Assembly: GCA_029974925.1 (NCBI GenBank)
Contig: JARKQH010000248.1
Location: 1 to 35,503, forward strand
DNA length: 35,503 bases
From: Verrucomicrobiota bacterium
GTDB taxonomy: Bacteria; Verrucomicrobiota; Verrucomicrobiia; Limisphaerales; UBA8199
Direction: 5' to 3'
Both the position numbers and the translations under genes were made by a program. Below the pieces are notes generated by a model. It had not been told where the DNA came from and searched no databases. It saw only the letters and a list, made by a program, of their open reading frames with translations. This document shows, piece after piece, positions 8,083 to 35,503 of this stretch; the stretch's first letter is position 1; every line of letters begins with the position of its first letter.

Positions 8083-9210
8083 GTGAATAACATCGAAGTC
8101 ATCATTGTCTTGCTGCTGCTGGTCATGGCCGTCCCGGATTTCTGCCGAAAAATCCGGCGGCCGGCGCTGGCCTATTCGATCTTCGTTCTGTTCGGGATTC
8201 TGTTGGGAACGATGGTGAACGAAGAGGTGGCCACCATGTTGCAGCAGGCGGGTTATGTCGGCTTCCTGTTGCTGCTCTTTGAAGTGGGCCTGGAAATTGA
8301 CCTGCCCCCCTTTCGCGAGTTTCTTCCGCCGTTGCGTTATGCGGTCATCTGGGCGGCGGCCCAATTCCCCGTGGCCATCCTGCTGGGGCTTCAAGCCGGG
8401 CTGGAACCGGTCCAGGCCTGCCTGGGTGCCGCCGCGCTGGGGGGCTGTTCGGTGGGCATCGCGCACTCCGCTTGGAAGGTGTTCCCCCTCCAGCCCCCGA
8501 GCGTGCGTGAGCGCGTTCTGCACATCATGGTGGCGCTGGAGATGCTTTCGATCGTGACGCTGGCCTTGGGTACCGCCGTCATCCGCCAGGGGCTGACCGG
8601 CTGGATTCTCCTCCGCTTGCTGGGGATTGTCGCGGTGATTTACCTCATTACCCGGTTTGCCGTCCATCTGGCTCAGGGCTTTCAGCGCATCCTCACCATG
8701 ACGACTCACTGGCGTCTGCACTGGCTGGCGCTCCTGATCCTGGCGGTTTGCGCCGCGGGCAATCGCCTGGGCCTGGACTCGGCCAAGACCGCCTTTGTGC
8801 TGGGCCTCACCCTCAGCCGCACCCGCCATCACGGGATGAATCTGGAAAGCATCCTCGCCCCCATCAGCAGGCGTTTCCTCATCCCTTTGTTCTTCGTCTC
8901 CCTCGGCCTGCAATTGAAATGGACCATGCTCTGGGGGTTGCCGGCCCTGCTGGCATTGGGCACGGCGGGCTTGCTGTTTGGACTTCGCGAAATCCTGCAT
9001 CGCCGCTGGCTGCCCAGCGGCGCCGCCGGGCCGGTGTATCTCCTCTTTTGCCCCAACCTCACCCTCGTTGCCCTGGCGGCGACAGTGCTCCTGGAATACG
9101 CCCGGTCACCGCACGCCGCCGCCTGGCTGTTGGTCACCGGACTCTTGATGACGGTTCCCTCCGTCCTGCTCCTCCCCCCCGGCGAGGAAGCTGGGGGCGG
9201 CGAGCCATGA
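8083..9210 (+). CDS. CPA2-type cation:proton antiporter membrane domain protein
   Basis: 375 residues, almost entirely hydrophobic, with about a dozen predicted membrane segments. The early region (PALAYSIFVLFGILLGTMV, then GFLLLLFEVGLEIDLP) matches the first half of KefB/NapA-like sodium/proton exchangers, and GLDSAKTAFVLGLTLSRT with FLIPLFFVSLGLQLKW matches the second half. It lacks the C-terminal RCK/TrkA nucleotide-binding domains of Kef channels, so it is a membrane-domain-only transporter, presumably exchanging Na+ or K+ for H+. The ion-binding Asp pair typical of NapA is not obvious, so the ion is uncertain. The start is a GTG at 8083. It converges on the E3 gene with a seven-base gap and is divergent from the MBL-fold hydrolase. 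Confidence 0.85.
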   Translation: MNNIEVIIVLLLLVMAVPDFCRKIRRPALAYSIFVLFGILLGTMVNEEVATMLQQAGYVGFLLLLFEVGLEIDLPPFREFLPPLRYAVIWAAAQFPVAILLGLQAGLEPVQACLGAAALGGCSVGIAHSAWKVFPLQPPSVRERVLHIMVALEMLSIVTLALGTAVIRQGLTGWILLRLLGIVAVIYLITRFAVHLAQGFQRILTMTTHWRLHWLALLILAVCAAGNRLGLDSAKTAFVLGLTLSRTRHHGMNLESILAPISRRFLIPLFFVSLGLQLKWTMLWGLPALLALGTAGLLFGLREILHRRWLPSGAAGPVYLLFCPNLTLVALAATVLLEYARSPHAAAWLLVTGLLMTVPSVLLLPPGEEAGGGEP

Positions 9211-34950: not shown

Positions 34951-34986
34951 CCGCAGGACACGGAAGCGGAAGCCCTCTCCCGCCCC

Positions 34987-35048
34987 TCCGGGAGCCTCTC
35001 CCGGTGTTCCGGGAGATTCTCCCGGCGCGTCGGGAAATTTTCCCCTTA
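34987..35048. repeat. Three tandem palindromes with a 21-base period
   Basis: Three units of about 21 bases, each a near-palindrome: arms CCGGGAG and CTCCCGG around CCT (unit 1) and ATT (unit 2), then GGGAAA and TTTCCC in unit 3. The stem sequence differs among units while pairing is kept. They lie directly after the SDR gene stop at 34950. Transcription-terminator use is possible for unit 3, which ends in TTTTCCCC. Confidence 0.65.
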
Positions 35049-35225
35049 GAGGGAATAGAAGAGAAGAGATAGAGGGAGGGGAACGAACGGGGCGGGCGTT
35101 CCGGCATCCTGGCGGGAGGAATGTTTCGGCCCCCCCCACCCATGGAGGAGGGATGAAGGATGTAGGATGAGGGATGAGGTACGGCGTGGGTCACCACGCG
35201 ACTAAGGCTGATGGCTGCCGCTTCC

Positions 35226-35327
35226 CGTTGCACGGTGGCGCTCTTTGCGGGAGCTTCACCGCCCGACCGTTGGCCTCACGCCAAGGACCCAAAGCTCGCC
35301 AGGACCCTTCCGCGTGTTCTGCGGGTT
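35226..35327 (+). repeat. Dispersed intergenic repeat, copy D
   Basis: Colinear with copy C (27001-27110): GGCGCTCTTTGC, GAGCTTCACC, CTCACGCCAAGGAC, AAAGCTCGCCAGG and TTCCGCGTGTTCTGCGGG. It is degenerate but clearly homologous in order and spacing. Confidence 0.6.
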
Positions 35328-35365
35328 CTACGGGCCAGCCCTCCCCCCCCCGGAAAAAAGTTCAA

Positions 35366-35409
35366 AGTTGGACCGGAGTTGTCCGAGCTCGGACAGGGTT
35401 GGTCCAACT
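35366..35409. promoter_or_regulatory. 44-base dyad upstream of the right-end CDS (candidate operator)
   Basis: Symmetric about 35387/35388. Centre: perfect 14-base palindrome GTCCGAGCTCGGAC (35381-35394). Outer arms: AGTTGGACC (35366-35374) and GGTCCAACT (35401-35409), also perfect, with 6-base unpaired spacers (GGAGTT and AGGGTT) between. The whole is four half-sites of GGAC/GTCC type at regular spacing. It ends 17 bases before the ATG at 35427, a position typical of an operator or of a translation-controlling RNA structure. Confidence 0.6.
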
Positions 35410-35426
35410 ATATAGGGTAAAAACCT

Positions 35427-35503
35427 ATGAATGAGAGCAACATCACCTCAAACGGCGGGGCGACCGCCCCGGTGGACGTTCCGGTTTACCGCGTGGCCAA
35501 CTG
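35427..35503 (+). CDS. Start of a CDS cut by the right window edge (unidentified)
   Basis: An ATG at 35427 opens a frame that continues to the window end: MNESNITSNGGATAPVDVPV then YRVAN. Only 25 residues are visible, so no family can be assigned. A second ATG at 35431 in another frame gives an Arg/Pro-rich translation unlike a protein start and is less likely. No strong Shine-Dalgarno sequence is seen; AGGG at 35414-35417 is about nine bases upstream. Its position behind the 44-base dyad suggests a regulated gene. Confidence 0.5.
   Translation, partial: MNESNITSNGGATAPVDVPVYRVAN

Follow-up and report, generated by a model that had tools for sequence, protein, structure and literature searches.

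The window analysed here (35,503 nucleotides, the entire contig C268 of a 5.73-Mb genome) carries near its right end a 44-bp dyad (35366..35409, forward strand) just ahead of a truncated coding sequence, and the question raised by this locus is what such a regular array of GGAC and GTCC half-sites does there. The initial annotation preferred the operator of a multimeric regulator, or a recombination or replication site, to a terminator. Recurrence of the site ahead of genes supports the first of these, with protein binding as the putative step: the dyad is probably the operator plus promoter of a dispersed set of phage-derived genes, through which one regulator would act on scattered loci.

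Structure of the dyad and its conserved core

The dyad is composed of a left arm AGTTGGACC (35366-35374), the spacer GGAGTT, a central palindrome GTCCGAGCTCGGAC (35381-35394) that has no second occurrence within the window, the spacer AGGGTT, and a right arm GGTCCAACT (35401-35409). The perfect 14-base palindrome, the 9-base arms, the 6-base spacers and the 17-base gap before the ATG at 35427 are all as originally described, and the 44-base symmetry is real in the window, but the perfect 9-bp outer arms are peculiar to the window copy among the aligned copies. In the alignment of 16 copies from six genomes, the conserved entity is a pair of tandem 15-bp inverted repeats ((G)GACA-N5-TGTC(C)), followed by TATANAGGGTG and then by the start codon. 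Both repeats have the form GGAC-N7-GTCC in the window, where unit 1 (GGACCGGAGTTGTCC, 35370..35384, forward strand, aligned in all 16 copies) is followed 21 bp later by unit 2 (GGACAGGGTTGGTCC, 35391..35405, forward strand); the spacing is 22 bp in a genome of another genus, UBA6082 (G009). What is conserved is therefore a 21-bp tandem and not a nested 44-base palindrome. Unit 2 reads GTTTGTCC in five of the six remaining copies of the source genome (G000), and five of these six have TTTGTCC where the window copy has TTGGTCC and the C292 copy TGTGTCC.

The conserved stretch continues past the dyad through TATATAGGGTA (35409-35419) and ends close to the ATG. It includes a conserved TATATA (35409..35414, forward strand), a candidate -10 element; no sigma-70 -35 was found at the usual distance from it, nor any consensus sigma-70 promoter. 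The overlapping AGGGTA (35414..35419, forward strand), which is AGGGTG in most copies and is conserved as far as other genera, may be either a ribosome-binding or a promoter element.

Two other repeats were observed nearby. A second dispersed element lies some 340 bp before the dyad (34972-35153; 88% identical to positions 4030-4210 of L036 on C418). It consists of three palindromes, namely GGGAG-N3-CTCCC twice followed by GGGAAATTTTCCC, and its period is likewise 21 bp. Intergenic repeats around GGGACGTCTCGTCCC recur between loci of the source genome, occurring at L187 and L188 in the first 320 bp past the 3' end of the window gene and also upstream at C411 and C159.

Recurrence and the genes behind the site

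The strict 16-base motif GGAC-N7-GTCC-N6-GGAC-N7-GTCC has seven matches in the genome (C159, C268, C292, C411, C418, C448 and C469) against 0.007 expected from base composition, in an assembly that is fragmented (487 contigs, 4.4% contamination) and places five of the seven copies near contig ends; the reversed pattern, used as a control, has no strict match and one at two or fewer mismatches. The downstream half, TTTGTCCAACTATATAGGGTG, was found with up to three mismatches at six of the seven loci and at no others, and an eighth copy (C195) is decayed, with two mismatches and without an intact gene. All seven copies have the same polarity, each a short distance ahead of an ATG, and none of the cassettes has a partner site closing its other end. 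The strict motif is absent from all 12 family relatives, and a strict dyad search of named genome contigs gave no match. A loose 16-base pattern retrieved 39 contigs from IMG/VR, mostly unrelated phages or coding sequence, which are not counted as support.

The C448 site precedes genes for a small membrane-type protein, a protein in the TerS position, the terminase large subunit (TerL), a portal and a connector, and the C469 site precedes genes for an S78 prohead protease and an HK97-type major capsid protein (MCP). Both cassettes are flanked by host genes (KsgA, GAPDH, PyrF and others), and their annotated flanks yielded no recognisable tail or integrase gene; the same genome has a prophage encoding a tape-measure-like protein on C481, a possible source of tails. 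On C268, C418 and C411 the site is followed by a copy of the truncated window gene, and on C159 by just a 5' remnant of it. Recurrence upstream of paralogues, proposed at the outset as a check, was thus borne out, three of the seven genomic copies standing before window-gene paralogues and two before phage head operons.

The coding sequence in the window (MNESNITSNGGATAPVDVPVYRVAN..., 35427..35503, forward strand) is, as had been supposed, truncated, and this by the contig end alone, the window being the whole of C268. Its product is identical at 25 of 25 residues to a 276-aa full copy on C418, the C-terminal half of which shares 36% identity with a protein of G083; phage replication initiation families match the N-terminus of that G083 protein. 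Judged from these similarities, the window gene resembles a phage replication initiator; no relatives of it were found in the viral contigs or phage records searched, and the predicted structure of the 276-aa copy has a mean pLDDT of 47, too low for a structural comparison. Near-identical flanks of C268 and C418 reflect a recent duplication: the region upstream of the dyad (35254..35365, forward strand) has further copies at C418 (96% identity over a 249-bp match), C411 and C159. Such duplication would explain some of the likeness of the three window-gene copies to one another; it leaves the agreement between the terminase and protease loci unexplained.

Several of the loci have restriction- or defence-type genes as neighbours, namely those for an XhoI-type endonuclease accompanied by a methyltransferase, for a pair of AAA_21 and DUF4276 proteins, and for an Eco57I-type methylase (L034, 177-1918; L036, 4713-6531; L154, 2549-3826).

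Relatives, selection and competing readings

Relatives of TerL occur in 33 of 196 genomes of the order and relatives of the MCP in 7 of 13 genomes of the family. UBA6082 has the same split, with terminase-portal-connector and protease-capsid genes on separate contigs and each half preceded by its own version of the site. In UBA693 (G010) and Loclat_bin-04207 (G011), the cassette is unsplit and the site stands ahead of TerL; G010 has three more sites, of which one precedes a TerS-TerL pair and two precede remnants. In three other genomes, diverged versions therefore stand ahead of the orthologous head operons, the conservation that the initial annotation had asked for. Identity between sites is 79-98% within G000, 85% within G009 and 81-96% within G010, whereas between genomes it is mostly 51-75%, with a maximum of 83% (G010 versus G002), the pattern to be expected were each set to follow a regulator of its own. 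Seven head and packaging genes compared between G000 and G009 have dN/dS of about 0.20-0.43 and no stops; TerL and MCP, although at separate loci, have the same nearest neighbours in gene-to-gene comparison, two genomes of the same genus pairing; and the derived split, in which the protease-capsid genes no longer lie between portal and connector, is common to two genera. Together these observations argue that the scattered operons have been kept as one system, with sites that would follow a shared regulator.

Among named phages, the closest TerL matches (43-45% identity) come from Sinorhizobium phages, a Leptolyngbya phage and Pseudomonas phage B3, which is a transposable phage, and the relatives in IMG/VR have a transposase family upstream. 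Related temperate phages of Verrucomicrobia type (L080, L089, L095 and L102) resemble the window in having GGACA-N5-TGTCC (GGACAnnGGCTGTCC) at or near the early/late boundary, but theirs is a single unit where there are two here, and their contigs have the phage operons in sequence. This comparison points to an origin of the site in a phage late-promoter element, with doubling in the scattered cassettes.

At other IMG/VR loci (L117, L124, L133, L134 and others), GGACA-N5-TGTCC units likewise repeat in tandem every 21 bp, some of them intergenic, and at L111, L114, L126 and L145 such units lie within coding sequence, in differing reading frames. At L130 (about 8715-8775) and L138 (about 9074-9134), three units immediately precede, or lie at the beginning of, a small open reading frame that resembles, by eye, Arc-type ribbon-helix-helix proteins. 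L241 (IMG/VR 3300013308_001014) has portal and capsid genes from this lineage with apparently host genes between them, a further hint of dispersed head cassettes.

A possible but rather doubtful alternative to an operator is that the sites mark fragments of decaying mobile elements (satellites or transposable prophages), their sequence being shared through recent copying with no present function in trans. Gene-less decayed copies (C159 and C195 in G000, C37 and C116 in G010) do make the set look like mobile debris as well, its units multiplying and dying, and the MCP fragments in G003 and G002, the repeated TerL copies in G008 and G030, and the affinities to B3 and to transposase-bearing viral contigs point the same way. 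Mere debris would not readily account for head genes that are intact with low dN/dS, for a derived split common to two genera with a site ahead of each half, or for the agreement, within genomes, of sites that precede non-homologous operons.

An improbable reading is that of a replication or recombination site, in which the repeats would be iterons of the adjacent replication-initiator-like protein, or the end of a mobile unit. The tandem 21-bp repeats are iteron-like, the window gene is akin, in its C-terminal half, to a phage replication initiation protein, and copies lie at the edges of duplicated segments; but the site also precedes the terminase and protease operons, there are just seven strict copies, and the conserved TATANAGGGTG suits a start of transcription or translation. 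This part of the initial proposal has become less likely because the polarity is constant, a start codon is always near and no partner site stands at the other end of a cassette. A plasmid origin was rejected, there being no plasmid match.

It is very unlikely that the dyad acts as a hairpin in a leader RNA, such as a terminator or translational switch. The window copy does form by far the strongest hairpin (-32 kcal/mol, z -5.6), and the copies in G011 and G002 fold moderately (z -2.7 and -2.5), but a strong fold is lacking before the intact head operons, where folding is at best slightly better than in shuffled sequence (z -1.4 at C448, -1.0 in G009 and +0.6 in G010), and with no T run, no predicted terminator and no Rfam match a hairpin or terminator was rejected, in keeping with the original judgement that this is not a terminator. 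The restriction of perfect outer arms to the window copy, together with the weak folding ahead of intact head operons, would favour binding to duplex DNA rather than an RNA element, and a pair of adjacent dimers rather than one long palindrome. Prophage operons are often under SOS control, but a LexA box that drives phage genes after DNA damage is the least credible reading and was rejected, since GACA-N5-TGTC is absent upstream of lexA in G000 (where GGACA and TGTCC occur 20 bp apart), lexA of G010 has a CTGT-N8-ACAG-type box, and the genome-wide pattern comprises the seven loci alone.

Proposed function and known systems

As operator and promoter, the site would hold two dimers of one DNA-binding protein side by side on its two GGAC-N7-GTCC units, the spacing of 21 bp corresponding to two helical turns, just upstream of the TATA-like -10 element without a consensus -35. 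A phage-type activator may recruit or activate RNA polymerase there, in the manner of protein C at the late promoters of Mu, and transcription would then begin just ahead of the ATG. Control by activation seems the most likely form, with repression by a phage-type repressor as the main variant. A protein with two HTH domains seen in related phages is a candidate for the activator; its first domain has weak excisionase- or BldC-like matches (none by Foldseek at E 0.001 or better, and VIA Z up to 4.9). Possession of a common site would allow the terminase-portal-connector, protease-capsid and replication-initiator-like genes to be switched on jointly.

More speculatively, the set may belong to a gene transfer agent, or a capsid system that borrows tails, of the Limisphaerales, in which the head genes have been split into single-operon units and dispersed, each with a co-evolving tandem operator, a former late operon having become a host-wide regulon. 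To our knowledge, known gene transfer agents keep most of their structural genes together, and the co-regulation of phage-derived systems at multiple loci is poorly known. Searches of open-licence papers turned up no account of such a system in Verrucomicrobia. Here a short DNA signature links separate capsid and packaging loci, its copies drifting together within each genome, and offers a handle for finding the remaining parts of the system and its regulator.

Capsid-forming PICIs (cf-PICIs) have their own capsid and packaging genes and no tail genes, and form an integrated island in which integrase and regulators lie in a single block. Their use of tails has been reported (PMC13345588). The cassettes described here have terminase, portal, protease, capsid and connector genes of their own, with no tail gene recognised at their flanks; unlike cf-PICIs, they are distributed over two or more loci (C448 and C469), and the neighbours examined are host genes, with no integrase or island regulator seen beside them.

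Gene transfer agents are recognised by caudoviricete-derived proteins that are endogenized in the host genome, often at multiple loci, by mostly vertical inheritance and co-diversification with the host, and by the packaging and delivery of mostly random host DNA, their own genome being one that they cannot package (PMC9662315). As in RcGTA, BaGTA and BhGTA, head genes of caudoviricete derivation (matches for TerL, portal, connector, protease and MCP) are fixed at several host loci, as read here from the genes; the host-flanked C448 and C469 cassettes and the split shared with G009 place them as endogenized. Purifying selection and matching relationships of separate loci are further points of likeness, whereas the absence of visible tail genes beside the head genes and the splitting of the head operon are points of difference.

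A close model for the site is provided by the Mu late promoters (Plys, PI, PP and Pmom), which are activated by protein C through one dimer site ahead of several operons and have non-consensus -10 and -35 elements (PMC4461284). The site described here differs in being a tandem of two dyads of other sequence, before operons scattered over the chromosome, but as in Mu a shared dyad stands before several late operons without a consensus -35, and the TerL encoded behind it is related to that of a transposable phage.
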